Below, one piece after another: positions 19,934 to 49,850 of a stretch of 61,948 bases of DNA. This stretch comes from Phycisphaerae bacterium (GTDB taxonomy: Bacteria; Planctomycetota; Phycisphaerae; Sedimentisphaerales; Anaerohalosphaeraceae), in contig JACZKQ010000009.1 of assembly GCA_014859965.1 (NCBI GenBank), positions 1 through 61,948 on the forward strand, in the 5' to 3' direction. Position 1 is the first letter of the stretch, and every line of letters starts with the position of its first letter. The notes beneath the pieces are model-generated. The model was given only the letters and a program-made list of their open reading frames with translations. It was not told where the DNA came from and did not search any database. The position numbers and the translations under genes were made by a program.

Positions 19934-22662
19934 TCAGCGAGGAGATGAAAACTCGAAGCATGAAGCATGAATTAACTAACCGTAAGATTGCAGGTCTGAT
20001 CTTCAGCCGGGATCGGGCGATACAACTTTGCGCTGTACTCGAATCCTTCCACGCGCGTTGCCGCGACCGCCATGCCGTCGCCCTATACGTTCTCTTTAAG
20101 GTTTCGGATGAGATGAACAGGCGGCAGTACGACGCGCTCAAAAAACGTTTTGCCGACGTGACCTTCATCGAGGAGACTCACTTCAAACAGCAGACAATCG
20201 ACATTGCGGCCGGCGGCGATCATGTCCTCTTTATGGTCGATGACAATCTCTTCGTCAGGGATTTCCACATCGAACAAGCAATCGCCGGCCTCCAACACCA
20301 TCCCGAGGCGATCGGTTTCTCGCTGCGGCTGGGCCGCAACACAGTGCACAACTACAATCGAAATGTCCGCATGACGCTGCCCGAGTTCGCCTGCATCGAT
20401 ACCGGCGTGCTCAAGTACGACTGGACCAGCGAACGCCACGACTTCGGCTATCCGTTGGAGATATCCAGTTCCGTTTATCGCACCGCCGACATCCTGCCGC
20501 TGATCCGGCAGCTTGATTTCGCCAATCCTAACCTCCTTGAGGGTCTGATGGCCGCCAATGCACGCCCGCTCGCCGCTCGGTGGCCCTGTCTGTTGTGCTT
20601 CGATCTTTCTGTTACATTCTGCAATCCCCTCAACATGGTCCAGACCGTATGCACCAACCGCACCGGCGGTGATGCAAGGTATTCGGCCCGGAACCTCGCC
20701 GCGCTCTATGCCGATGGCTGGCGAATCGACATCGCCCACTACAACGGTCTCATCCCCTGCGGCTGCCATCAGGACATGGAACTGGTGTTTCGCAAGGAGT
20801 CGGCCGACACTACCGTCGCCGTGCCCCTGGTTACAATCGAGATGATCACCTGCAATCAGGAGAAATACATCCGCCGCGCCATCGACTCGGTGCTCGCCCA
20901 GACATATCCCAATTTTGAACTGCTGATCGTCGACGACGGCAGCACGGATGCGACGCCGCGTATTATCGCATCGTATACCGATTCCCGCGTGCGGTGCATC
21001 TTCCAGGAGCACAAGAACCGCTGGGCCGGAACAAACCGTGCACTTGCCGAGGCAAGAGGCAGATATATCCTTGCCGTCGATTCGGACGATTTTATCGCCT
21101 CCGACTACCTCGAGAAAATGGTGGCGTTTGCTGAAAAGCATCCTGATGTGGATTACGTCTACCCCGCTGAACTTCTTCTGGTCGATCCGCAGGACCAGCC
21201 CACGGGCGCCCGCTGGCAATATCACGATTTTGCAGACAACAGGCTCCTGCCTCATTACCTCTTCGATCAGGGCCATTCGCCTATTCCCTACCCCGGCAGC
21301 CTTAGAAGAATGACCCTGTTTCAGAAGACCGGCCCCTATGACGAACTGCCGAATGTGGCGGATTTTGTGTTCCTGTGCAGGAACGCACTAAAAATCAGCT
21401 TCAAGAGGGTCGCCGACCATGCGACTTACTACTACCGCGTGCTGACGAACAGCCTCTCCAGAAACTTCGATGCGCGCGACCGGACAATCGCCCGTACGCT
21501 CCATGAAATGGTCGCCCTTTACCCGCCGGAGGCCTTGTGTCCGGCGGCAGCGGACGTCGACGATCCGGTTCTGAAAACGGCCCGTCTGCATCAGTACGCG
21601 GCCGAAACTTTTAGAAAACACGCGGCCGGCTACCACCTCGTAAAAAACGGCGACTACTTCCGGCATTACGCCGCCTTGCACCAGCAAGAGAGTCATTATC
21701 CGCCGTCCGCTGCGGCCCATCACACCTGGCACAAGCAGGAAACCTGCCCTTTGGTGACGGTGGAAATGGTCACCTATAACAATGCACGATACATCGGCCG
21801 GGCCATAGAGTCCGTTTTGGCCCAGACCTGCACCGAATTTGAACTGCTGATCGTCGACGACGGCAGCACCGACGACACAGCCGACGTCGTCGACAGGTAT
21901 GCCGACTCACGGATTCGTTACATACGCAGGCCGCACGTCTCATGTGCCGCGGCCAGAAACCACGTCCTTCGCGCAGCACGCGGCACGTTCATCCTCTGTG
22001 TCGATTCCGATGATTTTATTGGGCCTGACTATCTTCGGAAGATGCTTGCCTGTGCCGGGCAGCACCCCGACGTTGACTACTTCTACCCCGCGCAGCTCAC
22101 TCCCGTCGATGCGTCCGGCCGACCCGACGGGAAAGTCTGGCGGTATAGCGACGTGCCCGATAATCGGGCCTTGCCGGGCTACCTCTTCCATCAGGCAGGC
22201 TCGCCCATTCCGAATCCGGGAAGCCTCAAACGCCGTTCCATGTTCGACCGAACCGGTCCCTACGACGAGTTCGAGACGGTTGAAGATTTTGTTCTGTTGT
22301 GTCGTCATGCCCTCAAGATACGCTTCAAGCGGGTAGACGATCATGCGGCCTATTTTTACAGGCGACTCGACTCCGGCCTCTCCCGCAAGGCTGAGGCCCG
22401 CGATCGCATCACCTCGGAAATTCTCAGTGAAATGGTGCAAACGTATCCTGCGGAACTCCTATTGCCGCAAATTGCCTCCGTAACAGATCATGCGGCAAAA
22501 CAGCAGTTGTACCTTGAGTACCTGGCCCGGATTTTCGAGAAACATGCCGCCGGTTATCACATGGTCCGGCATGGCCGCTACTTTAAGAAATATGCGGACG
22601 CTTGCCGGTTTAAACTCAAGAACACCTCGCAAGCCGGTCGAGAAATGCTGCAGAGGGCATAG
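19930..22662 (+). CDS. Triple glycosyltransferase with tandem-duplicated GT2 domains
   Basis: 910 aa, ATGA-coupled to the previous gene. The first 280 residues are a distinct GT-A-like domain (LIFSRDRAIQLCAVLESF, FMVDDNLF). Two GT2 domains follow at about 300-580 and 615-890, each with ELLIVDDGST and VDSDDFI and with shared C-terminal parts (HAAGYH at both ends), so one arose by internal duplication. An in-frame ATG at 19954 or 19969 could be an alternative start. It ends 16 bases before fliD, so the glycosyltransferases and the filament cap are probably co-transcribed, supporting a role in flagellar glycosylation. Confidence 0.85.
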   Translation: MISEEMKTRSMKHELTNRKIAGLIFSRDRAIQLCAVLESFHARCRDRHAVALYVLFKVSDEMNRRQYDALKKRFADVTFIEETHFKQQTIDIAAGGDHVLFMVDDNLFVRDFHIEQAIAGLQHHPEAIGFSLRLGRNTVHNYNRNVRMTLPEFACIDTGVLKYDWTSERHDFGYPLEISSSVYRTADILPLIRQLDFANPNLLEGLMAANARPLAARWPCLLCFDLSVTFCNPLNMVQTVCTNRTGGDARYSARNLAALYADGWRIDIAHYNGLIPCGCHQDMELVFRKESADTTVAVPLVTIEMITCNQEKYIRRAIDSVLAQTYPNFELLIVDDGSTDATPRIIASYTDSRVRCIFQEHKNRWAGTNRALAEARGRYILAVDSDDFIASDYLEKMVAFAEKHPDVDYVYPAELLLVDPQDQPTGARWQYHDFADNRLLPHYLFDQGHSPIPYPGSLRRMTLFQKTGPYDELPNVADFVFLCRNALKISFKRVADHATYYYRVLTNSLSRNFDARDRTIARTLHEMVALYPPEALCPAAADVDDPVLKTARLHQYAAETFRKHAAGYHLVKNGDYFRHYAALHQQESHYPPSAAAHHTWHKQETCPLVTVEMVTYNNARYIGRAIESVLAQTCTEFELLIVDDGSTDDTADVVDRYADSRIRYIRRPHVSCAAARNHVLRAARGTFILCVDSDDFIGPDYLRKMLACAGQHPDVDYFYPAQLTPVDASGRPDGKVWRYSDVPDNRALPGYLFHQAGSPIPNPGSLKRRSMFDRTGPYDEFETVEDFVLLCRHALKIRFKRVDDHAAYFYRRLDSGLSRKAEARDRITSEILSEMVQTYPAELLLPQIASVTDHAAKQQLYLEYLARIFEKHAAGYHMVRHGRYFKKYADACRFKLKNTSQAGREMLQRA

Positions 22663-22678
22663 AAAGGAAGAGCTACAG

Positions 22679-25054
22679 ATGGCGGAATTGAGACTTTCAG
22701 GACTTAACTCCGGAATCGATACGGGTAAAATTATCGAGCAGTTGATGGAGGTCAACCGTCGCCGCCTGCGAATGATGGAGGCGGAAATCCAACGGTTCGA
22801 GCAACGGCGCAGCGCCGTCAGCGAGCTTCAGGGCAAGCTCAATACCCTGCGGTCCACCGCCGGCGAGCTTTCGGACAGCAGTCAGCTTCGCTCTTATAAC
22901 GTGACTACCAGTGACCCGGACTCTGTTACCGCCGATGTGGGCTCCAGCGCCCTCGAAGGAAACCACTCCGTCCAGATCAAACAGCTCGCCACATCAGACC
23001 GATGGGTGCACAGCGGGTTGGCATACGCCACTTCCTACGTCGGTGCGGGCAATTTTATCATCAGCTATAACAATAAGGAACTCGCCGTTCAGACGAGCAC
23101 CGAGACTACCCTGAATGACCTCGTCGGGCTGATCAACAACGATCAGGACAACCCCGGCGTCACCGCCAGCATCCTCAAGTACGATAACGGCACCGGCGGC
23201 GTCTACCACCTTGTGCTCGGCGGCAAAGACAGCGGTTCCGACTACCAGATCAGCATCAATCCGAGCAACACCGAAGTCCACGCCGCCGACAGCGAGCTGA
23301 AAGACACTAATGACGCCAATGCCGTGCTTACCACCAAACTGACAGGTTTGAGCACGTTCAGCGGAGATATGGAAAGCGGCACAACCCTTGACCGCATCCG
23401 CATCACGGGCGCCGACCACGACAACAACAGTATCGACATCTATTTCAACGTCACCCGGTACACAACGCTCGAAGACGTGATCGGTCACATTAACAATGCT
23501 TACGACGGAAGCGCCGTCGCCACGCTGTCGGAGGGCGTCATCAAACTTACCGACACCACCTGCGGCGCCAGTCACATGAACATGGCCCTGACGTTTGTCG
23601 CGGGAACGGATTCCACCGCGGAATTGACTCTCCCCACCATCGTTCAGAGTGTCATCGGAGGATCCACGACCGCCGGCATCGCCGGCTTTGATGCATCGTC
23701 CTTTACCGAGACACAGTCCGCCCAGGACAGCAAGGTCCGGGTCGACGGCTATCCCCAGGCCCAAACCGTCGCTGAGGTCCAGCTCTTCACCAGCAGCGTT
23801 AACGCGACCGCCGGAACCTATACCCTCACCTTGAACGGCCAAACCACTGCGGCGCTGAATTACAATGACGACGTCGCCACCGTACAGAACGCCCTCAACG
23901 GTCTCAGTTCCATTCAGGCCATCGGCGGTGTCACCGTCGGCGGAACGCCGCCTTCCGAGAGCGGCGCCATGACTTTCACCTTTCTGGAAACCGCCGGCAA
24001 CGTCGACCGCATCATCGTCAACAGTTCGCTGAGTCCGGGAACGCATGTGACCAGTACGCAAACCCAGGGACGGGACGGCTGGATTAATCGAAGCACCAAT
24101 ACCGTCGATGACGTCCTGACCGGCGTTACCCTTAAGCTGCATCGTACGACGGGAGACGGCGCCGGCGGTTACAACAGCATTCAGGTGAACCTCACCCGTG
24201 ATACCGAGACGCTCAAGGCGAAGATCGAGGAAATGATTACCGCCTACAACACGGCGGTCATGTTCATCCAGGAAAAGACCAGGTATGATGCCGAAACGAG
24301 CACGTCCGGCATACTCGCAAATGATTATTCGGTTTCCACCGTCTGGAACCAGATCAAGCAGGGGTGGTCGCAGGCGGCAAGGGGGTTTGGAGGGGACGAC
24401 AGCTTCAGCAGACCCGGCGATATAGGAATCACACTCGGCAGCGACGGGATGCTCAAGCTCGACAGCAACGTTTTCAATGCAGCCATAGTCGAAAATTACA
24501 TGGGTGTGCTGTCGCTTGTCGGGGCACTCAAGACGGGCGTCAGCAACAGCAACGTCATCAAATTCAGCGGTGCGAGCAAATACACCAAGGCCGGTCAGTT
24601 CGAGGTTCAGGTATTCGGCGACGGCGCCCAGATCACCTCTGCCCGTATACGCGAAGTGGGCGGCGAGTGGCGAGACGCCACATGGGTGGACAATATTGTC
24701 TATGGCGATTCGACCTTCGACAAAAGCTACCCTGTGCACCCGGAAAACGGCCTTCAGTTCACGGTGGACCTGTCCAAAACCGCAAGCAATCCCACGGCCA
24801 TCATTACTGTCAAGCACGGTTTTGCCGGCTCGCTGAAGGAGACGCTCGACAGTCTGCTGGATCGTACAACCGGACGTGTTCCCATCAGCATAAATAGTAT
24901 CGATGCTCAGATCAGGAACGCCAATGGAAGAATCGACAAGGAAGAAACCCGTCTCGAAATCGCTGAAAAACGACTTGTCGAAAAATTCTCTCGATTGGAA
25001 AAGACGCTGTCACTCATTCAGCAGCAGATGGGCGCTCTGAGCATGTTAAGATGA
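22679..25054 (+). CDS. fliD: Flagellar filament cap FliD (HAP2)
   Basis: 791 aa. The N-terminus (RLSGLNSGIDTGKIIEQLME) and C-terminal coiled coil (IRNANGRIDKEETRLEIAEK to IQQQMGALSMLR) are the two conserved FliD parts that form the D0/D1 cap. FliD caps the growing filament and inserts flagellins. The start is set by AAAGGAAG 9 bases before ATG 22679. At 791 aa it is longer than usual (about 450-700). The middle carries an inserted beta module near residues 372-460 (YTLTLNGQTTAALNYNDD) of a kind met in large surface proteins. Its 3' end overlaps the convergent flhA-like gene by 9 bases. Confidence 0.93.
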   Translation: MAELRLSGLNSGIDTGKIIEQLMEVNRRRLRMMEAEIQRFEQRRSAVSELQGKLNTLRSTAGELSDSSQLRSYNVTTSDPDSVTADVGSSALEGNHSVQIKQLATSDRWVHSGLAYATSYVGAGNFIISYNNKELAVQTSTETTLNDLVGLINNDQDNPGVTASILKYDNGTGGVYHLVLGGKDSGSDYQISINPSNTEVHAADSELKDTNDANAVLTTKLTGLSTFSGDMESGTTLDRIRITGADHDNNSIDIYFNVTRYTTLEDVIGHINNAYDGSAVATLSEGVIKLTDTTCGASHMNMALTFVAGTDSTAELTLPTIVQSVIGGSTTAGIAGFDASSFTETQSAQDSKVRVDGYPQAQTVAEVQLFTSSVNATAGTYTLTLNGQTTAALNYNDDVATVQNALNGLSSIQAIGGVTVGGTPPSESGAMTFTFLETAGNVDRIIVNSSLSPGTHVTSTQTQGRDGWINRSTNTVDDVLTGVTLKLHRTTGDGAGGYNSIQVNLTRDTETLKAKIEEMITAYNTAVMFIQEKTRYDAETSTSGILANDYSVSTVWNQIKQGWSQAARGFGGDDSFSRPGDIGITLGSDGMLKLDSNVFNAAIVENYMGVLSLVGALKTGVSNSNVIKFSGASKYTKAGQFEVQVFGDGAQITSARIREVGGEWRDATWVDNIVYGDSTFDKSYPVHPENGLQFTVDLSKTASNPTAIITVKHGFAGSLKETLDSLLDRTTGRVPISINSIDAQIRNANGRIDKEETRLEIAEKRLVEKFSRLEKTLSLIQQQMGALSMLR

Positions 25055-26653
25055 TGCGGCATCTGTTTTGAGCGCGTGCCTTTGAACGATCCTCCCGCAG
25101 CCGGTCTCTTCAAGGAATGACGTCAGATCGCCTCCTTCGCTGTGCGGGTCGGCGAAGATAAGCGCGATTGCGACGCTCTTGACGATGGACGTGCGGTGCT
25201 CCTGATCCATCAAATCGGGTGCGTAAATGATGACACGGTCATAATCCGCCGCGGCCGATGCAATCGCCTTGGCTGCCGTTGACGCACCTCTCACCGCAAT
25301 AGCGTGCAAACCCCACACGCGCAGATGCGCCACGCAGGTTGCGACCGGCCCCTGGCGCATACCGCCGGCATCCGCGTCGAATACCTCCGCTACGGCTTCC
25401 CGGCCCGACTCGGCGTCCACCAATAGTGTCCGCAGACCCCGTTGCGCCAGGCGGATGCCGACGTTCACCGCTACCGTTACCGGCAGCAATTCAGTTGTCG
25501 CGGCCGCCAGCAAAACAGGTTGCGTGCCGATGTCAGGGGCCGCTACATATTCCGCCAGTTCTTCATAATAATCTTCAGGGCCGGCCGCCGCGCGCTCGGC
25601 CTCGCACCCCGGTGCGGTTTTGCGTTCGCGTGTTAGTCGCGGCTGAAACTCCGCGACGCGCTCCACTGCAATTTTGGACGGATCGCCGCCCGCCGACACC
25701 TCCGTGAAATCCGGATTGAGCAGTTCCACCTGCTCGTGACGGCCTGTCTCCTGTGAGACGATTTCGATAATCTCGCCGGGCTGCCGCGGGCGGTCGTCAT
25801 CGCTCCGCTTCAGGTACCCGCAAGTTCGCTCACAAAGGCGTGCTGCGACCCAGGCGACGATATACATCGGCGAGAGGGTGAATATGCCGGCTCCCGCCGC
25901 CGCGATGGCGCACTCCTGCAAAGATGCCGAATTCATCGTCTCACGCAACGTGAAAATGGCAAGCTGTCCTACGACGATCGTCAGAATCACGGCCGCCGCG
26001 ATCACCGCGTCGCACCGCAGCAGCTTTGCCGCGCCTCCCATGTTCAGATAGAAACCGGTCTGCCCGAGTGCGCGGTCTTCCAATTCCCGAGCCCGCCGCG
26101 TTCCGATCAGCCCCGCCTGCTCGTCGAAGAGAGTCTCTCTTTCGTTTTCAGGGATGGTTTCGGTCAGGCATGTCAGCGCTGTAGCAGTGATGCGCCCTGC
26201 GGACCGGAAGACGAGCAACGAAACGACGCCTGCCGCAATCGGCAGCGCCAGCAACAGGCCGACGGAACTTAGACCGGACACCAGATCTCCTGTTGTCACA
26301 ATCAGTGTCCCTTCGATCCTGCCCCGGAAGACGGAACCCGCCGTTGCCGTGCTCAATCCCATGCGCAGCAGCGCTCCGAACACCATCAGCGGCGGGAAAC
26401 CCGAAAGCTCCAGCGGATCTTTGCCCGTCAGGCCGATCAGGACGAGCGCTGTCGACAGGCACAGACTGCAACCCCACACGATGTCCAGAGTCCATGCAGG
26501 TATGGGCACAAACGCCCCGCACAACAGCGACACCGCCGCCGCGACCGCAATGAAATCGCTGCGGGCGACCATCACCCCACCGGGCTTCTTCTGACAATCA
26601 GGCTGTTCGTCGGACATAATTCTCACGCACAGAGTGCCGACAGTATACGCCAT
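25046..26653 (-). CDS. FlhA membrane domain fused to a degenerate ParA/BY-kinase-like domain
   Basis: 535 aa. Residues 33-275 align by eye with the FlhA/FHIPEP membrane half: first helices (DFIAVAAAVSLLCGAFVPIP), FGALLRMGLSTATA in place of the family's TLFRLALN-type motif, the cytoplasmic loop ARELEDRALGQTGFYLNMG with AKLLRCDA, and a last helix pair ending PMYIVAWVAARL. The large FlhA cytoplasmic domain (about 350 aa, chaperone docking) is missing. A charged linker (280-375) leads to a domain at 378-525 that reads like a ParA/MinD or BY-kinase fold (AVNVGIRLAQRGLRTLLVDAE, DYDRVIIYAPD) but lacks a Walker A Lys. ATG 26653 follows flhB by 19 bases. It occupies the usual flhA slot. Confidence 0.7.
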   Translation of the reverse strand: MAYTVGTLCVRIMSDEQPDCQKKPGGVMVARSDFIAVAAAVSLLCGAFVPIPAWTLDIVWGCSLCLSTALVLIGLTGKDPLELSGFPPLMVFGALLRMGLSTATAGSVFRGRIEGTLIVTTGDLVSGLSSVGLLLALPIAAGVVSLLVFRSAGRITATALTCLTETIPENERETLFDEQAGLIGTRRARELEDRALGQTGFYLNMGGAAKLLRCDAVIAAAVILTIVVGQLAIFTLRETMNSASLQECAIAAAGAGIFTLSPMYIVAWVAARLCERTCGYLKRSDDDRPRQPGEIIEIVSQETGRHEQVELLNPDFTEVSAGGDPSKIAVERVAEFQPRLTRERKTAPGCEAERAAAGPEDYYEELAEYVAAPDIGTQPVLLAAATTELLPVTVAVNVGIRLAQRGLRTLLVDAESGREAVAEVFDADAGGMRQGPVATCVAHLRVWGLHAIAVRGASTAAKAIASAAADYDRVIIYAPDLMDQEHRTSIVKSVAIALIFADPHSEGGDLTSFLEETGCGRIVQRHALKTDAASS

Positions 26654-26672: not shown

Positions 26673-27734
26673 CTATCTCCGCTGACGCAGCCGATAAACG
26701 AGCGCCAGGATTTCCGCCACTGCAACGAACAGCGAATCTGGAATCGCCTTGCCTATATCCGCCGAAGCGTACAAAGAGCGTGCGATTTCCGGCCGGCGAA
26801 TAATCGGCACCCCGTAAGCACGCGCGACTTCCTTGATCTTCTCGCAGACGTGGTCGCCGCCCTTGGCAACCACCACAGGCGCCTGCATCGTATCCGGGTC
26901 ATAGCGCAAAGCGACCGCCACATGTGTCGGGTTGACGATTACCACGCTCGCCTTCGGAACATCGTGCAGCATGCGCCGGGTCGCCAGTTCATATTGCCTC
27001 TGGCGAATCCGCCTCTGGACCTCCGGCGCCGTCTCGGCGTCCCGCATCTCGTCCTTGACCTCCTGCTTGGTCATCTTCAGACTCTGGGTGAACTTATACT
27101 TCTGGTAAATCATGTCTATGACGCCGATGACGAGCAGCCCCAGGCAGAGCCGAATGACCACCCCGGTAATCAGTTTCGAAATGACGGCCAGGAGCTGCGA
27201 CGTCCACGCCCACTGAAATGTCGCAAGATAAGTCAGCTTGCCGCGCAGATAAAAATAGACGATCGTGCTGATCAGGATAAGTTTAAGAACTGAAAGAAGC
27301 AGCTTCACCGCCGCTGCGGGCGAGATGAGCCGTTTCAAACCCTTGACCGGATCGAGGCCGTCGAGTTTCCACGCAAGCGCCGCCGGCGCCCATTGCAGCC
27401 CGCTGATCAGGATATTCGTCCCCGTCGTAAAAACGAGAAGGGTCAGAAGAAAAGGAGCCATAATCAAAGCTGCCCCGACCAGCTTCGCGCTAAAGTAGCT
27501 CGCGCAGGCCTGTGATGTGCCAAGCAGGGAATAATCGCACGACAATCCCTCGCGAATCTCAGTTGTCGCCCACTCCACGATCTTCGGTCCCATCATAAAT
27601 GTCGCCGCCAGAAGTGCAATAAGCGACACCGCGGACACCATATCCTGGCTGTAAGGCACCTGTCCCTTCTCGCTGGCCTTCGACAGGCGGCGAGCGGTTG
27701 GTTGTTCGGTTCTTTCTGCGGCGCTCTCGGCCAT
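26673..27734 (-). CDS. flhB: Flagellar export switch FlhB
   Basis: 353 aa, normal length. FlhB sits in the type III export gate and switches secretion from rod/hook to filament substrates after self-cleavage. The N-terminus ERTEQPTARRLSKASEKGQV is typical, four hydrophobic segments follow (about 32-210), and the autocleavage motif NPTH is intact at residues 268-271, followed by the conserved AVALRYDP. It lies between fliR and the flhA-like gene, as in many flagellar operons. With an intact NPTH, the export switch should work normally, which makes the abnormal neighbour more striking. Confidence 0.95.
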   Translation of the reverse strand: MAESAAERTEQPTARRLSKASEKGQVPYSQDMVSAVSLIALLAATFMMGPKIVEWATTEIREGLSCDYSLLGTSQACASYFSAKLVGAALIMAPFLLTLLVFTTGTNILISGLQWAPAALAWKLDGLDPVKGLKRLISPAAAVKLLLSVLKLILISTIVYFYLRGKLTYLATFQWAWTSQLLAVISKLITGVVIRLCLGLLVIGVIDMIYQKYKFTQSLKMTKQEVKDEMRDAETAPEVQRRIRQRQYELATRRMLHDVPKASVVIVNPTHVAVALRYDPDTMQAPVVVAKGGDHVCEKIKEVARAYGVPIIRRPEIARSLYASADIGKAIPDSLFVAVAEILALVYRLRQRR

Positions 27735-27804: not shown

Positions 27805-28557
27805 TCACAAAGGTATGAGCTTGTTCAGCCACTCCGCAAATTCCGTTACAAAGCTGCCGATAAACGGCAGGAATATGCCCACCATGATCAAGCCGAGCCC
27901 CACTTTCAGGGGCAGGCTCAAAAACAGGATGTTCGTCTCGGGGGCGATCCGTGCCAGAAACGCAAGCACGACCATCAACAACAAAAAGGCCGCCAGAACC
28001 GGCGCCGATATGCGCAGTCCGAGAATCAACATCGTGCTGCCCGCGGTCGCAATGCTGGCTGTCAGCTTGTCGATGGCCGGAATCGAACCTATGGGAAATG
28101 TCTCATAACTGCGCGACAGTGTGACCAGAAAAACGTGATGGCCGTTCGCAGCCAGGAACAGCAGGATGAAGATCATCTCCATTAGAATGCCCAAAGGTTC
28201 GCCGCTCTCTTCCGTCATCGGGTCCAAAATACTGGCCATCGACAGGCCCATCTCCCGTTCGCAAATCTGTGCGCCGACCTTCACCGCGGCAAAAATATAG
28301 AATGCCACGAGGCCCAGCGCCAGCCCGTAAATGACCTCGCCGCTCATCATCAGCCCCGCCTCGAGCGCCGAATAGGACCGCGGCAAACCCGGGTGCGCAA
28401 CGGCGCCTGTGAGGAACAACGACACGAAAATGGTCAGCGTCAGCTTGACCGTCGTCGGAATCGACTGCCAACTGAAAATCGGCGCCGCAAAGAAAAATGC
28501 GCCCACGCGTGCAAACACCAACAGGAAGCACAGCAGATTGGGCTCCAGCAGGTCCAT
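27805..28557 (-). CDS. fliR: Flagellar export gate protein FliR
   Basis: 250 aa. Polytopic membrane protein of the FliPQR export gate. Conserved stretches include FARVGAFFFAAPIFSWQSIP near the N-terminus and the GAQICEREMGLSMA loop near residue 95. Its start codon overlaps the fliQ stop by 1 base, so the two are translationally coupled. A 70-base gap separates it from flhB. Confidence 0.93.
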   Translation of the reverse strand: MDLLEPNLLCFLLVFARVGAFFFAAPIFSWQSIPTTVKLTLTIFVSLFLTGAVAHPGLPRSYSALEAGLMMSGEVIYGLALGLVAFYIFAAVKVGAQICEREMGLSMASILDPMTEESGEPLGILMEMIFILLFLAANGHHVFLVTLSRSYETFPIGSIPAIDKLTASIATAGSTMLILGLRISAPVLAAFLLLMVVLAFLARIAPETNILFLSLPLKVGLGLIMVGIFLPFIGSFVTEFAEWLNKLIPL

Positions 28558-28829
28558 CAGGATTGACCGTACGACTGAATCTGATTAAAAATCTCAAGAG
28601 TGAACTTCACGACGACCTGCATCATCCAGTTGCCGAAGAAAAGCGATGTCACCCCGATCGCCAGCAGCTTCGGAACCAGCGTCAGCGTCATATCCTTCAG
28701 CGACGTGACCGCCTGAAAAAGTGAAATTGCAAGGCCCATAATGACACTGACCAGCATGATCGGCGCAGCTACCAGCAGGGCTGTCTCAAGCGTATGCCGC
28801 CCCAGGTACAGAATATATGTTGAATCCAT
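28557..28829 (-). CDS. fliQ: Flagellar export gate protein FliQ
   Basis: 90 aa, the usual length. Two transmembrane hairpin helices (LVAAPIMLVSVIMGLAISLF and a second from about residue 50) with the typical QAVTSLKDMTLTLVPK between them. It forms the outer ring of the FliPQR helical gate. It lies 28 bases after fliP and overlaps fliR. Confidence 0.95.
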   Translation of the reverse strand: MDSTYILYLGRHTLETALLVAAPIMLVSVIMGLAISLFQAVTSLKDMTLTLVPKLLAIGVTSLFFGNWMMQVVVKFTLEIFNQIQSYGQS

Positions 28830-28857
28830 GAAAGATACTCCTCGACGCCTTGAACAC

Positions 28858-29670
28858 CTATCGAAAACTTAAACTCAAACTCTGCGCCAAAATACCCCAT
28901 CCGTCGATAAGAATGAACAGAATGATCTTGAACGGCAGTGAAATCATCGCCGGCGGCAGCATCATCATGCCGGCCGTCAGCAGCACGCTGGCGATTACCA
29001 GATCCAGCAGCAAAAACGGAATGAACATTAAACAGCCCATTTCGAACGCGGTTCGGAACTCGCTGATGATAAACGACGGAATGACGATGTGCAGCGGAAG
29101 ATCAGCCACCGATTTCGGCGCCTCCAGCCGTGCGATCGTGATGAACCGCGCGAGGTCTGTTTGCCGCGTCTGTCGAAGCATGAATTCCTTGATTATATTC
29201 GATGCCGCCAGACTTGCCTGTGTCGAATCCATGTCGCCGGCGATATACGGCCCAATCGCCTGGTCGTTCATCTTATAAAACGTCGGCGCCATCGTGAACA
29301 GTGTCAGAAAAATCGCCAGCCCCATCATCGCCATATTGGGTGGGATCGTCTGTGTACTGATGGCTCGACGCACAAAACCCAGCACGATCGTAATGCGCGT
29401 AAACGACGTGACCATAACAAGCACGCTGGGGAGAATGGCCAGCAGCGTGAAGATGGCGACGAGTTTCACCGGCGTGCTCCACTCGGCCTGCTGCTCCGGC
29501 GAGTCGCCCGCACTGGCCTTATCGATCACCTGCATGATCTGAGGCAGAGTCGGCATGGCCCCTGTCCCCTCGGACGTTTCCGCGGCGCGGCCTGTCTGCG
29601 CCGTGCACAGGCCGGTCAACGCCAAAACCGCGCAAACACCAAAACCAATGCACCTCGAACGTTTCATCAT
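28858..29670 (-). CDS. fliP: Flagellar export gate protein FliP
   Basis: 270 aa with an N-terminal signal peptide (MMKRSRCIGFGVCAVLALTG). Signature stretches are MVTSFTRITIVLGFVRRA, PPNMAMMGLAIFLTLFTMAP, FIISEFRTAFEMGCLMFIPF and the last helix MMMLPPAMISLPFK. FliP makes the core of the export gate. The start overlaps the fliO stop (ATGATGA), so the two are coupled. Confidence 0.96.
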   Translation of the reverse strand: MMKRSRCIGFGVCAVLALTGLCTAQTGRAAETSEGTGAMPTLPQIMQVIDKASAGDSPEQQAEWSTPVKLVAIFTLLAILPSVLVMVTSFTRITIVLGFVRRAISTQTIPPNMAMMGLAIFLTLFTMAPTFYKMNDQAIGPYIAGDMDSTQASLAASNIIKEFMLRQTRQTDLARFITIARLEAPKSVADLPLHIVIPSFIISEFRTAFEMGCLMFIPFLLLDLVIASVLLTAGMMMLPPAMISLPFKIILFILIDGWGILAQSLSLSFR

Positions 29671-30155
29671 CGCCCCTGTGCCTCTCCCGGCGAAAACTCC
29701 GGCGCTGCCGGCACGGATCCCGTTACGTCCGCCAAAAACGTTACCGACTGACTTGTGCTGCCGACAAGCAGTCTGCGCCCGCCACCCACTTCCACCAGGT
29801 GGAGCATCTTGTTGGGCCCCAGCGGCACGTTTTCGACCACCGAAATATTGCGTCCTCGCGACGTCGCCAGCCGCGGCATGAGCTTACGTGAAAAATACCA
29901 TGCTCCAGCGCCTAACAGCATCACAATGAGCACAGCGTAAGCAAACTGCTTCATCAGATCGTACCGGCTGCTTTCGTTAATCCCGGCCATGTCCAGCGGG
30001 TTCAGGCCAGTGGGTGCGGACAGGCTATATGCATCGGACTCGGTCACTGCCGCCGCGTGCGCCGGCGTCCGGTCCAGCCGCCCTGACAGCAAACTGTTCA
30101 GCACCAGGCACGCCGCCAGGAGCACGCACGCCACAACGATTCTTTTCTTGCCCAT
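29667..30155 (-). CDS. fliO: Flagellar assembly protein FliO
   Basis: 162 aa from the ATG at 30155 (MGKKRIVVACVLL); in-frame ATGs at 30161, 30173 and 30197 would add 2 to 14 residues, and an AGAGG lies before the inner ones. An N-terminal hydrophobic segment, a second membrane span (AYAVLIVMLLGAGAWYFSRK) and a cytoplasmic FliO domain (ISVVENVPLGPNKMLHLVEV, RRLLVGSTSQSVTFL) fit the family. FliO helps assemble the FliP ring. It is first in the fliO-fliP-fliQ-fliR-flhB block, after a 267-base gap. Confidence 0.85.
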   Translation of the reverse strand: MGKKRIVVACVLLAACLVLNSLLSGRLDRTPAHAAAVTESDAYSLSAPTGLNPLDMAGINESSRYDLMKQFAYAVLIVMLLGAGAWYFSRKLMPRLATSRGRNISVVENVPLGPNKMLHLVEVGGGRRLLVGSTSQSVTFLADVTGSVPAAPEFSPGEAQGR

Positions 30156-30197
30156 TTCCATGCCGCCTCTCATGGCCCGCAAGAGTGCAAATCGCAT

Positions 30198-30464: not shown

Positions 30465-31202
30465 CTATGTGCCCTCCGTCAGTACGGCAATGGCAATCTG
30501 TGTCTCAGTGCTCAATGCGCCGCTTGTGCCGGTCCAGGCGCCGCCGGCGCCCGCCCCCCAGCAGTAAATTTTCCAGCGATGTTCTTCGCCAAGCAGCCGC
30601 TTTAAATGATCCGCCACCGCCTGTGCGCGTCGGGCGGACACCAGCCATTGCTGTTTCTCACCCCGCTCCTCCGCTGCAAGACCGACCACGTACAGAACCG
30701 GTTTGTCGCCCGCAAAATTCTCCTGCAGTTGCCGCGAGTAATTATCGAAGTATGCCTTTGCTTTGCCGTCCAGCGTCCAACTGCCCTCCGCAAAGACAGT
30801 ATCGGCAACCGTAAACGTCTTTTCCGCACAAGTGATGTGCGACGGCATGATTTTCATCATCTGCTCGATTTCTTCGATGGTTCGCCGGTAAACCTCCGTC
30901 GCCAGATCAATTGAGCGGTCCTCAGGTTTGTCGTCGCCTTTGTCAATCTTGTATTTGATCTTGGGGTGGTCGAACTGACTGCCCACGTCCTTGTTGAAGA
31001 GAATGCCAGACATCCCGAAGTCCGCAATAGCTCGCTTGAACGAGTCCTGGCCTCTTGCAAACCGACTCTCATCCTGATCCTCCGCCAGGCTCAGCAGCAG
31101 CACGAAAAACGTCAAGAGAAGCGTCACCATGTCCGAAAACGTCACGATGTACGCCGGGACGGCATTGCGCGGGCCATCAGATTTCTTCTTAGGGACTCTC
31201 AT
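30465..31202 (-). CDS. MotB-like stator protein, second paralogue
   Basis: 245 aa. One transmembrane helix near the N-terminus contains the proton-channel aspartate in IVTFSDMVTLLLTFFVLLLS. The periplasmic part has an OmpA/MotB-like layout (VSARRAQAVADHLKRLLGEE), but the peptidoglycan-binding core expected as GHTD is replaced by VVGLAAEER. ATG 31202 overlaps the upstream motB stop by 4 bases (ATGA). Tandem with another MotB and one MotA, it may form a mixed stator. Wall anchoring by the usual motif is doubtful. Confidence 0.8.
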   Translation of the reverse strand: MRVPKKKSDGPRNAVPAYIVTFSDMVTLLLTFFVLLLSLAEDQDESRFARGQDSFKRAIADFGMSGILFNKDVGSQFDHPKIKYKIDKGDDKPEDRSIDLATEVYRRTIEEIEQMMKIMPSHITCAEKTFTVADTVFAEGSWTLDGKAKAYFDNYSRQLQENFAGDKPVLYVVGLAAEERGEKQQWLVSARRAQAVADHLKRLLGEEHRWKIYCWGAGAGGAWTGTSGALSTETQIAIAVLTEGT

Positions 31203-31858
31203 TCGTAGATGTCCCGCTCCAGCAGTGTAATCTCGAGCATCCGCTGATCGCCGCGCCTTTGCCGCAACGTGCACGACGCCGTAATACTAAACATGTTCTT
31301 GTTCAGCCCCTCTTTTCCCGCTAGGTATGCCGCAACCGCCCAGGCGCGCTGTAGTCCCATCTCCGGGTTGCCGTCGGGACCATTCTCGCTGATAACGACG
31401 CGCGTGCGGTCCGCCAGAAGCAGAATCGCCAGTTTGTCGAGGACCGTCCGTCCCTGTTGCGATATGACCTCGCCGCGGCCGAAGAAGAAGTCACTGGAGG
31501 GTATTGTGAAAACCTTCAGATTACGAAAATCCAGCGGCCGCCGCTCCTTCATGAAATTGTTGCGGTCCTCGGGCGTCAGTGTCGGAGTATCTGCGCCCTT
31601 GTCGAGGCGTTCGGTTTTCTCGATCTGCGGACGCTCCAAAACGGCTTCTCGCTTATCGGTAAACGACATGCCGACCGTCGGAAGCGCCTGCGCAAAAGAG
31701 GAACCAAGCCCCTCCAGTGTCCGCGGGCGAAATGCTGCAAAGCTCAGCAGCAGCACAAAAAATGTCAGCAGCAGCGTCATGCAGTCGCTGAAAGTCACCA
31801 TCCATTCCGGCGCCCCGGCCGGCGTCTCTTCGGCTTCATTGTTTGCCTTTCGTCTCAT
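31199..31858 (-). CDS. MotB-like stator protein, first paralogue
   Basis: 219 aa. The membrane helix MVTFSDCMTLLLTFFVLLLS has the channel aspartate. The C-terminal domain resembles OmpA (GQRAWAVAAYL-type helix: GLQRAWAVAAYLAGKEG) but the peptidoglycan-binding motif is lost (VVISENGPDGNPEMG). It starts 2 bases after motA and overlaps the second paralogue. The two MotB proteins differ strongly outside the membrane helix, so they are an old duplication with probably distinct roles. Confidence 0.82.
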   Translation of the reverse strand: MRRKANNEAEETPAGAPEWMVTFSDCMTLLLTFFVLLLSFAAFRPRTLEGLGSSFAQALPTVGMSFTDKREAVLERPQIEKTERLDKGADTPTLTPEDRNNFMKERRPLDFRNLKVFTIPSSDFFFGRGEVISQQGRTVLDKLAILLLADRTRVVISENGPDGNPEMGLQRAWAVAAYLAGKEGLNKNMFSITASCTLRQRRGDQRMLEITLLERDIYE

Positions 31859-31860
31859 CG

Positions 31861-32631
31861 TCAGATATTCGCCTTGACTTCCTCACGGCGGTTCGGAGAT
31901 ACGAACGACTGCATCTTTTCACGCACCACCGTCGGATTTTCGCCGCGAGAGATCGTGCAGATGCCCTCGATCGTCATCTCCATCGCCAGGATTTCAGCAT
32001 TGGAGTAAATCCCGAGTTTGCCCGCCAAAGGAATAAACACCAGGTTCGCAAGAAACGCCCCATAAAACGTCGTCAGCAGCGCCACCGCCATGCCGGCTCC
32101 GATGTCATCCGGCGAACTCAGGTTCTTCAGCATCTGCACAAGACCGATCAGCGTGCCGATCATTCCAAATGCCGGCGCCGACGCACCCATGAACTCCAGC
32201 ACCTTTTTGCCCGTCTTGTGGCGCTCCTGAAGATACTGTATCTCCAGTCCCATCACATCGCGGATCGCCTCTTCGTCCTGTCCGTCCACAAGCATCTGCA
32301 GCCCTTTGGCCATGAAGCTGTTGTCCGTCTTGCGTATCTGCTCCTCCAGCGCCATCGCCCCGTCGCGGCGGCTGATCGCCGCGAAATTCACCATCTGCTG
32401 CACGATCTCTGCAGGCAGCAAAACCTTCACAAGAATCGTCTTCTTGATTACAGCGAAAATGCCCAGGAACTGGCTCATCGAAAAATGAATCAGCACAGAA
32501 CAAACCATGCCGCCGACCACGATCGAAAAAGAAGGAACGTGGATGAAGCCCTTCGCGCCGCCACCCATGCCGATGGCGACGATAATCACGGCAAAGCCGC
32601 AGATTAAACCTGCAATCGTCGCAAAATCCAT
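31861..32631 (-). CDS. motA: Stator protein MotA
   Basis: 256 aa with four membrane segments. The conserved channel stretches are APAFGMIGTLIGLVQMLK and MAVALLTTFYGAFLANLVF, and the cytoplasmic loop (about 60-150) carries charged residues that contact FliG. The short motA form (about 255 aa, PomA/MotA of the Bacillus-type) rather than the long enterobacterial form. It lies between motE and the two motB genes, so the stator and its chaperone are made together. Confidence 0.93.
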   Translation of the reverse strand: MDFATIAGLICGFAVIIVAIGMGGGAKGFIHVPSFSIVVGGMVCSVLIHFSMSQFLGIFAVIKKTILVKVLLPAEIVQQMVNFAAISRRDGAMALEEQIRKTDNSFMAKGLQMLVDGQDEEAIRDVMGLEIQYLQERHKTGKKVLEFMGASAPAFGMIGTLIGLVQMLKNLSSPDDIGAGMAVALLTTFYGAFLANLVFIPLAGKLGIYSNAEILAMEMTIEGICTISRGENPTVVREKMQSFVSPNRREEVKANI

Positions 32632-32635: not shown

Positions 32636-33316
32636 CTACTCGCTTTCTTTGACCTTCTTCAACTCGGTGCTCAACAGCGAAGCCAGGTCCGGTTTCTTGG
32701 TGCTGATTTCTCCCAACAGTTTCGCCGCCGTCCGCTCGCCCATCAAATAGATGATCTTCACGGCGTCCTCCAGTTGCTGATTCGAAGCCATATTAACAAT
32801 AATCGTGCTTGCCTGCGTCACGTCCATTTTGTCGTAAGTGCTGGCGATGCGCTGAAGATTCTGTTTTTCCAAAGCGCTAATTTCCACAAGACGCCTTTGC
32901 AGCGCCGCCTCCTGCTGCTTCAGTCGGCCGATGGCGACATTCAACGCGTCATGAAGAACGCTGAGCCGCTCCACATCAGCATCCAGGCTCTTCTTGGCCG
33001 TTTCAATGCGTTGCGCTTCCTCCGCCAGCGATCGTTCTTTCGACTTGTACTCCGTAATCCTCTCACGCACCTCGAAGATCAGATCCTTGAGTTCCTCCTC
33101 GTGCAGCGTCGCCTTCAACGGATTGCCGCCCCTGGCCCCCGGCGACTCCGTTTGCCCATATGGGCCGACCGCTTGCGTCGGGTCCTCTTGAGGCGCAGCC
33201 GCGATCGCCGCCGCCGCTGTCGCCAACTGCTGCTTCATATACCACGTAAAGCCGAACACGCCGGCAAAACTCGCCAGCCCGGCCGCCGCTATAATTATAA
33301 TCTGTACCTTCCGCAT
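32636..33316 (-). CDS. MotE-like membrane-anchored coiled-coil protein
   Basis: 226 aa from ATG 33316, preceded by GGGAG. One N-terminal membrane helix (IIIAAAGLASFAGVFGF), a Pro/Gln linker, a long coiled coil (about 75-165) and an MgtE-N-like C-terminal helical domain (IASTYDKMDVTQASTIIVNM). This layout matches MotE, a chaperone for stator or motor proteins, and the YlxF slot after fliJ in other operons. It sits between fliJ and motA. Confidence 0.7.
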   Translation of the reverse strand: MRKVQIIIIAAAGLASFAGVFGFTWYMKQQLATAAAAIAAAPQEDPTQAVGPYGQTESPGARGGNPLKATLHEEELKDLIFEVRERITEYKSKERSLAEEAQRIETAKKSLDADVERLSVLHDALNVAIGRLKQQEAALQRRLVEISALEKQNLQRIASTYDKMDVTQASTIIVNMASNQQLEDAVKIIYLMGERTAAKLLGEISTKKPDLASLLSTELKKVKESE

Positions 33317-33365
33317 AGAGCCCACTCCCGATAATCTGCGGCACATGCCGCCGCGGTTCCCCGTT

Positions 33366-45713: not shown

Positions 45714-46529
45714 ATGTTAGTGATTAAGAACAACCTGATGGCATGGAACGCCGCACGCCACCTTGGGCGAAACTACGAGCATCTGGCCGATTCAGTGGAA
45801 AGGTTGTCCTCCGGCTTGCGTATCAATGGCGCCAAGGACGACGCCGCCGGACTGGCCGTCCGCGAACTGATGCGGGCCGACATCGCCGTCATAAAGCAGG
45901 GCTCGCGAAACGCCAACGATGGCATCAGCATGCTGCAGACCATGGAAGGCGCCATGGCCACCATCGACGAGGCGCTGATCCGCATGAAGGAACTTGCAGA
46001 GCAGGCCGCAACAGGATCCTACTCCACCGGCCAGCGCACGATCATGAACGCCGAATTCCAGCAGATGCTTGAGGAAATCACCCGGATCGCCGGCGATACC
46101 AAATTCAACAGCATTCATCTCCTGGACAGTGATGAAGCAGCCAACAACGCCGTCATCCATTTCGGCATCGGCTCCAGCATCACCGTCAATTCCGTCGATG
46201 TCACCGCCTCGGCGCTCGGCGTCGCCTCGGCGTCTTTGGCGACCGCCTCGCAAGCACAGAATGCCCTCGACTCCGTGACGACGGCGATTACTCGCAAGGA
46301 CAGTGCCCGCGCCAGCTTCGGCTACATGATGAACCGCCTCGAAAGCACCAGCAAGGTGCTCGATATCCAGGCCGAAAACCTCATGGCCTCCGAATCCCGC
46401 ATCTCCGACGTCGACGTAGCCACTGAAATGGCCTCGCTGACCAAGAATCAGGTCCTCTCCCAGGCCGGTGTCGCCATGCTGAGCCAGGCCAATGCCATGC
46501 CCCAAATGGCCCTGAGCCTTCTCAGATAA
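45714..46529 (+). CDS. Flagellin 1
   Basis: 271 aa, a minimal flagellin. N-terminal D0/D1 (VERLSSGLRINGAKDDAAGL, ISMLQTMEGAMATIDEALIR) and C-terminal D1/D0 (SRISDVDVATEMASLTKNQV, PQMALSLLR) are joined by a short spacer, without the surface D2/D3 domains. AAGGAG precedes the ATG. Several Ser/Thr in the middle (TASALGVASASLATASQ) could be glycosylated by the large transferases of this locus (inference). The last third is nearly identical to flagellin 2. Confidence 0.96.
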   Translation: MLVIKNNLMAWNAARHLGRNYEHLADSVERLSSGLRINGAKDDAAGLAVRELMRADIAVIKQGSRNANDGISMLQTMEGAMATIDEALIRMKELAEQAATGSYSTGQRTIMNAEFQQMLEEITRIAGDTKFNSIHLLDSDEAANNAVIHFGIGSSITVNSVDVTASALGVASASLATASQAQNALDSVTTAITRKDSARASFGYMMNRLESTSKVLDIQAENLMASESRISDVDVATEMASLTKNQVLSQAGVAMLSQANAMPQMALSLLR

Positions 46530-46558
46530 ATGATTTGAAATAACCCTTGTGATAGGAT

Positions 46559-46589
46559 AAATGGCTGCTCGACTCTCGGGCAGCCATTT
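46559..46589 (+). terminator. Terminator after flagellin 1
   Basis: AAATGGCTGC, an 11-base loop, GCAGCCATTT is a perfect 10-bp stem 30 bases past the stop. The tail gtctta is only weakly U-rich. It separates flagellin 1 from the promoter of flagellin 2. Confidence 0.7.
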
Positions 46590-46793
46590 GTCTTATCCAC
46601 GCTCCCGCAAGCCGTCGCTCCGCTCCACAAGCCCTCAGCCCCAGGCAGGCGCATTCTCCGGATACCCCACCGCCGCGCTGTCTGCCGACCGAACCAGCAC
46701 CTCAGAACAAGCCGCAGATTCCCATAAAAAACCACGCACGTCTCCTGTCCTGCGATTTTATCGCCCATTTGCTTCTTCCCCGCCAAAAATCGC

Positions 46794-46820
46794 TTAAGGC
46801 CGCGCCCTTGCTTCCGATAA
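46794..46820 (+). promoter_or_regulatory. Sigma-28-like promoter, flagellin 2
   Basis: TTAAGGCC, 11-base spacer, TCCGATAA. Its -35 differs from that of flagellin 1 at one position and its -10 is identical; the flanking CGC and TG differ little. Leader about 95 bases. Confidence 0.72.
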
Positions 46821-46846
46821 TGTACTTTGAAATCAATGGTTCCATC

Positions 46847-46882
46847 CGGTTTTTATGGGCACTGCGAAGTCCGGAAAAACCG
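46847..46882 (+). promoter_or_regulatory. Leader hairpin of flagellin 2 mRNA
   Basis: CGGTTTTT (46847-46854) pairs with AAAAACCG (46875-46882) around a 20-base loop, about 43 bases before the start codon. Confidence 0.4.
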
Positions 46883-46924
46883 TTGGTTCGTTGCAAGGGT
46901 TATTTAGGTAAGGAGATCAACAGG

Positions 46925-47743
46925 ATGTTAGCTATTAAGAACAATTTAATGGCGGACAACGCAGCGCGGCATGTCAGTTCCAGTTATGACGCCCTGGCAA
47001 GATCCGTCGAAAGACTGTCGTCGGGTCTGCGCATTAATGGCGCCAAGGATGACGCCGCCGGCCTGGCCGTCCGCGAACTGATGCGGGCCGACATCGCCGT
47101 CATCAAACAAGGCTCCCGAAACGCCAACGACGGCATCAGCATGCTTCAGACCATGGAAGGCGCCATGGCCGCAATCGATGACGCCCTCATCCGCATGAAA
47201 GAACTCGCCGAACAGGCCGCCACAGGATCCTATTCGCCCAGCCAGCGAACCATTATGGATGCCGAGTTCCAGCAGATGCTCACTGAAATCACGCGCGTCG
47301 CCGTCGACACGAAATTCAACAGCATTCATCTGCTCGACAGCGCCAGCTCATCCAATCGTTCGACCATCCATTTCGGCCTCGGGTCCAGCATCGACATCGA
47401 ATCCGTCGATGTGAGGGCCTCCGCCCTGGGAATCGCCTCGTCTTCCTTGTTGACGCCGACCCTGGCCACGGCCGCCATGGACCAGTTAACGACGGCCATC
47501 ACCAGAAAAGACAGTGCCCGCGCCAGTTTCGGCTACATGATGAACCGCCTCGAAAGCACCAGCAAGGTGCTCGATATCCAGGCCGAAAACCTCATGGCCT
47601 CCGAATCCCGTATTTCCGACATCGACGTCGCTACTGAAATGGCCGCCCTCACCCGCAACCAGGTTCTGTCGCAAGCCGGCGTGGCGATGTTGAGCCAGGC
47701 CAACGCCATGCCGCAAATGGCCCTCACTCTGCTGAGGGGATAA
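46925..47743 (+). CDS. Flagellin 2
   Basis: 272 aa, D0/D1 only, starting MLAIKNNLMADNAARHVSSS, with AAGGAG about 11 bases upstream. ATG 46925 is set by this conserved start; the frame is open further 5' across the promoter. It differs from flagellin 1 mainly in the centre (SASSSNRSTIHFGLGSSIDI). An 83-base run (47528-47610) is identical to 46317-46399 of flagellin 1. Followed by a hairpin and fliS. Confidence 0.96.
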   Translation: MLAIKNNLMADNAARHVSSSYDALARSVERLSSGLRINGAKDDAAGLAVRELMRADIAVIKQGSRNANDGISMLQTMEGAMAAIDDALIRMKELAEQAATGSYSPSQRTIMDAEFQQMLTEITRVAVDTKFNSIHLLDSASSSNRSTIHFGLGSSIDIESVDVRASALGIASSSLLTPTLATAAMDQLTTAITRKDSARASFGYMMNRLESTSKVLDIQAENLMASESRISDIDVATEMAALTRNQVLSQAGVAMLSQANAMPQMALTLLRG

Positions 47744-47771
47744 ACCAAGCTTCTTACCCTAAGTGGCCGAC

Positions 47772-47800
47772 GGGCGGCCGCTGGACCTGAGCGGCCGCCC
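47772..47800 (+). terminator. GC-rich hairpin between flagellin 2 and fliS
   Basis: GGGCGGCCGC, loop TGGACCTGA, GCGGCCGCCC is a perfect 10-bp stem. No U-run follows, so it is more likely an mRNA-processing or attenuating element that lowers fliS relative to flagellin than a full terminator. Confidence 0.5.
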
Positions 47801-47854
47801 GGCACTTTGAAATCAAATCCACCCTGCAAGCCAGACAGATAGAAGGACACGACG

Positions 47855-48211
47855 ATGACTGTAAGAATGTACGAGGAGACAAGCATTTCAACCCAGGACA
47901 GGGGCCGCGTGGTCGTCATGCTCTACGAAGGCGCGATCCGGTTCTTACGCCAGGCGATCAGGGCCCTGGAGCAGGGCGACCATGTGGGCAAAGGACGAGC
48001 CATTGGCAAAGCCCAGGACATCATCATGGAACTCAACAACGTACTCGACATGGAGACAGGCCGCGACATCGCCGCCAATCTGCGCCAGCTTTACATGTTC
48101 ATGTGGAAACACCTCAACCAGGCCAACCTGACCAAAGACCCCCGCATGGTGCAGCGGGTCATCGAACTGCTTGAAGAATTGAACCGGGGTTGGAGGACGA
48201 TCGCCTCATAA
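47855..48211 (+). CDS. fliS: Flagellin chaperone FliS, copy 1
   Basis: 118 aa. The text VVMLYEGAIRFLRQAIRALE and IGKAQDIIMELNNVLDMETG followed by NLRQLYMFMWKHLNQANLTK is the FliS helical bundle that wraps the flagellin C-terminus before export. AGAAGGA precedes the ATG by about 9 bases. It follows flagellin 2 by 111 bases. A second, distinct copy follows flagellin 3. Confidence 0.94.
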   Translation: MTVRMYEETSISTQDRGRVVVMLYEGAIRFLRQAIRALEQGDHVGKGRAIGKAQDIIMELNNVLDMETGRDIAANLRQLYMFMWKHLNQANLTKDPRMVQRVIELLEELNRGWRTIAS

Positions 48212-48297
48212 AGCCTCACGCCCCATAATGTGCCGCACCCTTTCTGCGGCGGTCCCCGTCGAACCCGTCCCGCCACAGCAAAGAAAAAAAACGCCAA

Positions 48298-48327
48298 AGG
48301 CGCAAATATTTTTTTTGCGCCTGTTTT
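48298..48327 (+). terminator. Terminator after fliS copy 1
   Basis: AGGCGCAAA pairs with TTTGCGCCT across a T-rich loop, followed by GTTTT. This is a convincing rho-independent terminator and isolates the flagellin 3 unit. Confidence 0.7.
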
Positions 48328-48400
48328 ACATTTTCAACCCCGTCCGTGAAAACACTATCGGGCGTGGCCATATCTTTCCTATTTTAACACAATTGCCCCC

Positions 48401-48427
48401 TTTAGTGCTTCCTTCTTGCGTCGATAA
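48401..48427 (+). promoter_or_regulatory. Sigma-28-like promoter, flagellin 3
   Basis: TTTAGTGC, 11-base spacer, GTCGATAA (7 of 8 at -10). Leader about 100 bases. The rest of the 48212-48536 gap is A+T-rich and holds only the terminator upstream of this site. Confidence 0.65.
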
Positions 48428-48536
48428 TTCAGGTTGACGCAAGTCGGGTGAACTTCCATACCGACGCGTCCTGTGATGGAACCTGCAATCTGGTCTGACA
48501 GGGGCAATTTCATTTTTGTGTTAAGGAGTTAGGAAC

Positions 48537-49355: not shown

Positions 49356-49386
49356 GGTCGCTTGGCGTGATATTGCTGAGATTCTG

Positions 49387-49421
49387 GGGAGATGGCTGTG
49401 CAGGATGCCCGGCCATCTCCC
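49387..49421 (+). terminator. Hairpin between flagellin 3 and fliS copy 2
   Basis: GGGAGATGGC pairs with GCCATCTCCC across a 15-base loop. As after flagellin 2, no strong U-run follows, so partial read-through into fliS is likely. Confidence 0.5.
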
Positions 49422-49490
49422 GTCCTTAAATGCATCACCGGCGGACCCGAACCGCCATTTTCGACGCTGGAACTCTTACGGAGCACTACC

Positions 49491-49850
49491 ATGAAGGGAC
49501 TCGATGTCTACAGGGAAACCACCGTCGCCACGCAGAACAAAGGCCGCCTCATCGTCATGCTGTATGACGGCGCCGCCAGGTTCCTCAAGCAGGCGATTCG
49601 GGATATCGAAGCAAACAACCTGATCGGCAAAGGCCGAAACATCCAAAAAGCACAGGACATCATCTTCGAGTTGAATACCATCCTGGACATGGAGGCCGGT
49701 GGCGAAGTCGCCGCCAATCTCCGCTCACTCTACAACTTCATGAGCCGACACCTCAGTCAGGCAAACATCAAATGTGATCCGCAGATGGTGCGCGAGGTGA
49801 TTACGATGCTCGAAGAATTAAACCAGGGATGGCGCGCCATCACGGCGTGA
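49491..49850 (+). CDS. fliS: Flagellin chaperone FliS, copy 2
   Basis: 119 aa from ATG 49491, with GGAG 7 bases upstream; the frame is open 99 bases further but that part overlaps the hairpin. FliS motifs: LIVMLYDGAARFLKQAIRDI, IQKAQDIIFELNTILDMEAG and NLRSLYNFMSRHLSQANIKC. Clearly homologous to copy 1 but diverged, consistent with partner choice for flagellin 3. Confidence 0.94.
   Translation: MKGLDVYRETTVATQNKGRLIVMLYDGAARFLKQAIRDIEANNLIGKGRNIQKAQDIIFELNTILDMEAGGEVAANLRSLYNFMSRHLSQANIKCDPQMVREVITMLEELNQGWRAITA

Follow-up and report, generated by a model that had tools for sequence, protein, structure and literature searches.

FlhA docks chaperone–substrate complexes through its cytoplasmic ring, and to our knowledge a single protein with a single architecture has been assumed for it across flagella and type III secretion systems. 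The question raised by the present locus is what a protein does that stands in the flhA slot of a flagellar operon with the membrane half of FlhA and no ring. The locus lies in a 61,948-nucleotide stretch of DNA from a Phycisphaerae bacterium (contig JACZKQ010000009.1 of assembly GCA_014859965.1), which was analysed whole and is called the window below. The gene concerned (25046..26653, reverse strand) encodes 535 amino acids in a single open frame, in which FlhA-derived membrane helices are joined to a domain resembling bacterial tyrosine (BY) kinases; it is referred to as the FlhA–BY pseudokinase fusion (FAP), or simply the fusion. In this study, the fusion is shown to be a conserved FlhA paralogue that arose once, within one order of Phycisphaerae, and the gene is functional and under purifying selection.

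Frame and halves of the fusion protein

The fusion gene runs from an ATG at 26653 to a stop codon ending at 25046, confirming the uninterrupted 535-residue frame in the flhA slot behind flhB that had been described in a sequence-only reading of the window. The longest frame opens at a TTG at 26725 and adds 24 residues upstream; the ATG start (MAYTV...) is preferred because orthologues begin at the same place (MDYTI..., MEYTI...). Residue numbers follow the 535-residue, ATG-start protein, and the parts of the protein given below are encoded on the reverse strand.

The first half (residues ~31-279, 25817..26563) is FlhA-derived and covers transmembrane helices (TM) 1 to 6, as judged from FHIPEP and PDB profile matches, alignment and model helices. 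Pfam FHIPEP matches residues 48-274 with profile positions 6-235 of 657 (E 4e-18), and its 65.7 bits stand above the curated cut-off of 29.1. The NCBIfam FlhA model scores 76 bits (2e-21), approximately one tenth of its full-length cut-off of 772, and FlhA and SctV are the NCBIfam models ranked for this half. A profile built from 15 fusion orthologues matches FlhA/SctV chains of the PDB at E 1e-39 over the same part. When aligned with 14 complete FlhA sequences from the order, the fusion tracks FlhA as far as TM6 and the stretch that follows, then skips TM7-TM8 and enters a linker; the eight-helix architecture of FlhA is thus not retained, and the cytoplasmic ring domain is likewise absent, as the end of the FHIPEP match and the low NCBIfam score indicate. 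The earlier proposals that residues 33-275 follow the FlhA membrane helices and that the chaperone-docking domain of about 350 residues is missing both hold. In short, TM1-TM6, the conserved cytoplasmic loop and the gene slot behind flhB are shared with FlhA/SctV, and TM7, TM8 and the ring are not. With six helices, the C-terminus would stay in the cytoplasm.

Residues tested in Salmonella FlhA were compared across the family in a residue table. D45 is kept in 19 of 21 fusions and R85 in 17 of 21; position 94 carries R or K in 19 of 21, and position 249 an acid in 14 of 21. Asp-208 is essential for export in Salmonella (PMC3139655). An Asp or Glu occupies this position in 12 of 20 orthologues, and the window fusion lacks this acidic residue, having Leu there and Asn at the K203 position; unlike in FlhA, therefore, Asp-208 is not conserved. 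Because D45, R85 and the positive charge at 94 are mostly kept and Asp-208 only partly, the membrane half may retain FlhA-like packing with no strict dependence on the proton site.

The cytoplasmic linker (residues ~280-352, 25598..25816) has low predicted local distance difference test (pLDDT) values in the structural model and contains the motif ELLNPDF (25706-25726), which is kept in nearly all orthologues of the window's own family. It leads into the C-terminal domain (residues ~353-529, 25067..25597), which was delimited by fold search, profile match and residue table. For the second half of the fusion, Pfam returned CbiA only, below threshold, and NCBIfam weak matches to ATPase BagA, eps_fam (BY kinase) and ParA. 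With the 15-orthologue profile, the CapA1-CapB1 BY-kinase chimera 4jlv matched positions 344-507 at E 1.5e-5. An AlphaFold2 model of the whole protein (8 sequences, mean pLDDT 72) is helical in its first half, and its second half forms an alpha/beta domain of nucleotide-binding type. In Foldseek, all 49 significant matches were BY kinases (Wzc, CapAB, Etk, BceF, VpsO), and VIA-align placed the Wzc/CapAB/Etk type at Z 16-17.5 with a root-mean-square deviation of about 3-4 Å over ~180 residues. These Pfam, NCBIfam and Foldseek results rule out an ordinary FlhA ring domain in this position.

The residue table covers 22 fusions and 17 stand-alone relatives, and the catalytic site is degenerate throughout the fusions. 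None of the 22 has the P-loop Gly-Lys-Ser/Thr, and the site reads LPVTVAVN (25463-25486 in the window) or close variants; the Walker B Asp is replaced by Tyr in all 22 (Tyr477, 25223-25225), and the Walker A' Asp is kept in all 22 (Asp413, 25415-25417). The EX2RX2R motif, whose helix builds the BY-kinase ring (motif definition in PMC3795738), was not found; most family members have [DE]xYYxxL instead. The C-terminal tyrosine cluster of BY kinases is also missing from the window fusion, with no Tyr among its last 30 residues. Since a BY-kinase fold is combined with the loss of the Walker A Gly-Lys, the Walker B Asp and EX2RX2R, the domain is classed, on residues and model, as a BY pseudokinase that is predicted to be catalytically dead. 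A degenerate P-loop, BY-kinase-like domain without the Walker A Lys had been suggested beforehand, and structure prediction and profile search bore this out.

The resemblance to BY kinases (Wzc, Etk, CapB) thus extends to the fold, the position of the helix before the core and the Walker A' Asp; however, the membrane part of these kinases is of Wzz type, and here the domain is joined to an FlhA membrane half. The BY pseudokinases EcpK of Myxococcus and HfsB of Caulobacter likewise combine the BY-kinase fold with absent catalytic residues, but they partner polysaccharide co-polymerases, whereas in the fusion the domain is covalently part of an export-gate paralogue. EcpK has been proposed as a scaffold on its membrane partner (PMC12004946). 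FlhG/FleN and MinD share the SIMIBI superfamily fold and a flagellar context with the fusion; their fold matches are weaker than those of BY kinases (MinD Z 14.1, FlhG (4rz3) Z 13.0), and the Walker A lysine of their P-loop ATPase site is absent from every fusion.

Distribution, origin and selection

A full-length flhA is present elsewhere in the window's genome (G000:C114), behind fliL-fliM-fliN-type genes, as a 719-residue frame matching FHIPEP at 800 bits over positions 1-655 of 657; an Rfam scan of this locus gave no matches. A second flagellar or virulence export system is ruled out by the single flhB and single fliP of the genome. Given one export system, with the full-length flhA at another locus, the fusion is a paralogue that functions next to an ordinary FlhA, which was one of the two options of the sequence-only reading. 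The other was a new export-gate or pole-marking protein. As a gate of its own it fails: the fusion cannot be the gate itself or replace FlhA, since the docking ring is gone and the normal FlhA is kept. As a pole marker it is at most putative.

The search of related genomes for the same fusion found it in approximately 35, all of one order of Planctomycetota, class Phycisphaerae. With the families of this order numbered f1 to f7 and f1 being the window's own, it occurs in about 25 of 39 f1 genomes, two of f4, about ten of f7 and, in diverged form, one of f3, counts that are subject to the incompleteness of the metagenome assemblies. Across 294 genomes sampled evenly from the phylum, the full-length profile matches among those listed came from f1 only, and two family peptides searched against 84,980 species hit ten loci, all in Planctomycetota and some labelled Phycisphaerae. 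In relatives the fusion is mostly the last gene of the fliO-P-Q-R-flhB operon, between flhB and a convergent fliD. Exceptions are family f4, in whose genome G437 separate contigs carry the fusion and flhB, as well as genomes G012, G013 and G021, where the fusion is near flagellar genes without adjoining flhB. An assembly frameshift or collapse, or chance, is ruled out by the same architecture and mostly the same gene order in these ~35 genomes. Our literature search on FlhA paralogues or fusions, and on FlhA in planctomycetes, found nothing relevant.

Phylogenies placed the fusions in one clade, with support of 100/100 for the membrane half and 89/87 for the C-terminal domain. In the membrane-half tree they group with the FlhAs of f1, f2, f6 and f7, apart from the sequences of f5 and other orders (100/100), although the long branches leave their exact position unsure. 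The ratio of nonsynonymous to synonymous substitution rates (dN/dS) is 0.14-0.33 for the fusion in eight close pairs and 0.12-0.33 for FlhB in seven of the same pairs, and both halves of the fusion are constrained by selection. Some observations nevertheless weigh against a conserved FlhA-derived gate component. The fusion evolves faster than its neighbours, with identities to the window protein of mostly 22-38% compared with 47-66% for FlhB. Several flagellated relatives in the order have no fusion and carry fliD directly behind flhB; because such relatives exist, flagella do not generally require the fusion. A fold search with the membrane half modelled alone (pLDDT 79) returned no significant PDB match, which is no argument against the relation to FlhA.

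Gene order offers a view of the origin. In f5 and other orders flhB is followed by flhA, flhF and then an flhG-like gene, an order that looks ancestral. No FlhF above the curated score was found in any tested genome of f1, f2, f4, f6 and f7; it is present in f5 and other orders. Where the fusion is missing, fliD stands directly behind flhB (f2, most of f7 and one f1 genus), and where present the fusion mostly fills the gap between the two. The genome-wide check in the window's organism gave, besides the full flhA, no flhF above the curated score and no strong FlhG match (best 7e-12).

The closest relatives of the C-terminal domain are BY kinases and a stand-alone protein of the same genomes, which has 200-300 residues, combines one TM helix at its N-terminus with this pseudokinase domain and occurs about once per genome in many f1 and some f4 and f7 genomes; it is also found in G015, a genome without an flhB match. 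The representative in the window's genome is L062 (G000:C159:187-1074). Pfam returned only a sub-threshold AAA_31 match for this family, whose members (L062-L079) share the motifs LPVTIPVNxA..CLLIDLD..WPAxxF..INAP. At L064, L065 and L069 the stand-alone gene is preceded by genes for M16 peptidases and for a coiled-coil protein of the cytosol whose ends are conserved (DADILRxRADIL... and QQxIxADIVxxDI). The f7 fusions look like a less derived form, because their sequences are more FlhA-like and their C-terminal domains nearer to the stand-alone relative than those of other fusions.

A fusion across flhA-flhF-flhG, as proposed from the sequence, is not supported. An origin from flhF/flhG is rejected on the fold ranking, in which BY kinases (Z 17) come before MinD and FlhG, and on the stand-alone relatives; many genomes with the fusion, moreover, still have FlhG-like genes elsewhere. 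In the simplest history, a pseudokinase domain of the stand-alone type was joined to a copy of flhA. A duplicate of flhA, or else the copy that had remained behind flhB in its former position, retained TM1-TM6, lost TM7-TM8 and the ring, and gained a BY pseudokinase domain resembling the stand-alone family.

Flagellar genes around the fusion

The fusion starts 19 bp behind flhB (26673..27734, reverse strand), the sole flhB found in the genome, and fliR, fliQ, fliP and fliO (27805..30197, reverse strand) complete the export gate operon. The whole series leading into the fusion reads fliF-fliG-fliH-fliI-fliJ-orf-motA-motB-motB-fliO-fliP-fliQ-fliR-flhB. Its motA and two tandem motB-like genes (30465-32631) are kept in most relatives examined. 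The same holds for the conserved protein of ~236 residues between fliJ and motA (32636-33346), which has no Pfam match. On the other side, the convergent fliD (22490..25054, forward strand) overlaps the 3' end of the fusion by 9 bp with its own 3' end, and its true start is probably near residue 64 of its frame. Beside fliD lies a large glycosyltransferase cluster (33-22662) with tetratricopeptide repeats, radical S-adenosylmethionine proteins, a uridine diphosphate-sugar dehydrogenase and an epimerase, possibly serving flagellin or surface glycosylation. Three successive flagellin genes (45714-46529, 46769-47743 and 48537-49355) are followed by fliS (region 45714-49850).

Possible roles and their meaning

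We give about an even chance to the fusion being an accessory subunit or scaffold that is docked by its membrane half at the export gate. Within the basal body, the FlhA-like half would insert next to FlhA, FlhB and FliPQR, and the pseudokinase domain would be held in the cytoplasm beneath the gate, where it might act by binding rather than catalysis and, as a scaffold or brake, adjust how the gate is assembled or how active it is. Both this location and the regulation of the gate are inferred. The incorporation of Salmonella FlhA D208N/K into the apparatus (PMC3139655) and the scaffold role proposed for EcpK (PMC12004946) are in favour of this reading. The fuller proposal, a gate with a second hetero-subunit in which an FlhA paralogue regulates through a fused BY pseudokinase, is held with slightly less than even confidence; we know of no such control layer in other flagellar or virulence export systems.

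Alternatively, the fusion may have assumed a task of FlhF, which has been lost, and in some genomes of FlhG as well, as a factor for flagellar placement or number that marks the MS ring with a SIMIBI fold. The missing FlhF, the weak FlhG match in the window's genome and the position in the former flhA-flhF-flhG slot are consistent with this. It is nonetheless unlikely, as neither flhF nor the fusion is present in f2 and the majority of f7, many fusion-bearing genomes retain an FlhG-like protein, and the domain, which lacks a lysine for nucleotide binding, resembles BY kinases and not MinD.

Less probable again is a dominant-negative brake, in which the membrane half would mix into the FlhA assembly, lower proton-driven export and limit the number of active gates. 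Salmonella FlhA with D208N/K is still incorporated into the apparatus and is dominant-negative (PMC3139655), and the Leu at 208 and Asn at K203 of the window protein fit this picture; yet D208E is functional in Salmonella (PMC3139655), so that with an acid at 208 in over half of the orthologues the charge loss is not family-wide, and the conserved pseudokinase domain is left unexplained.

A link between flagella and polysaccharide, with the pseudokinase domain binding a Wzz-like co-polymerase or glycosylation machinery and coupling it to flagellar assembly, appears improbable. The usual partners of BY kinases and pseudokinases are polysaccharide co-polymerases (PMC12004946), and in the window the glycosyltransferase cluster adjoins fliD; however, where examined the stand-alone relative is near M16 peptidases and the coiled-coil protein, not in a glycan locus. 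That the fusion is a decaying relic, a functionless flhA copy joined to a passing domain, could be read from its fast evolution and its loss or absence in some lineages, and is very improbable given a frame open in nearly all of the ~35 genomes, the dN/dS values of the eight close pairs and invariant motifs in the linker and C-terminal domain.

The preferred reading of a docked accessory subunit has consequences for how FlhA is viewed. In these planctomycetes the membrane half of FlhA has been split from the substrate-docking ring, and both versions are found in one cell, with a kinase domain predicted to be dead on the split half. The role of BY pseudokinases would be extended from polysaccharide export to flagella. 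If the paralogue does sit in the gate, a hetero-oligomeric and regulated state is possible for the FlhA membrane assembly, and the fusion would provide a natural tool for studying the role of the FlhA membrane half without its ring.

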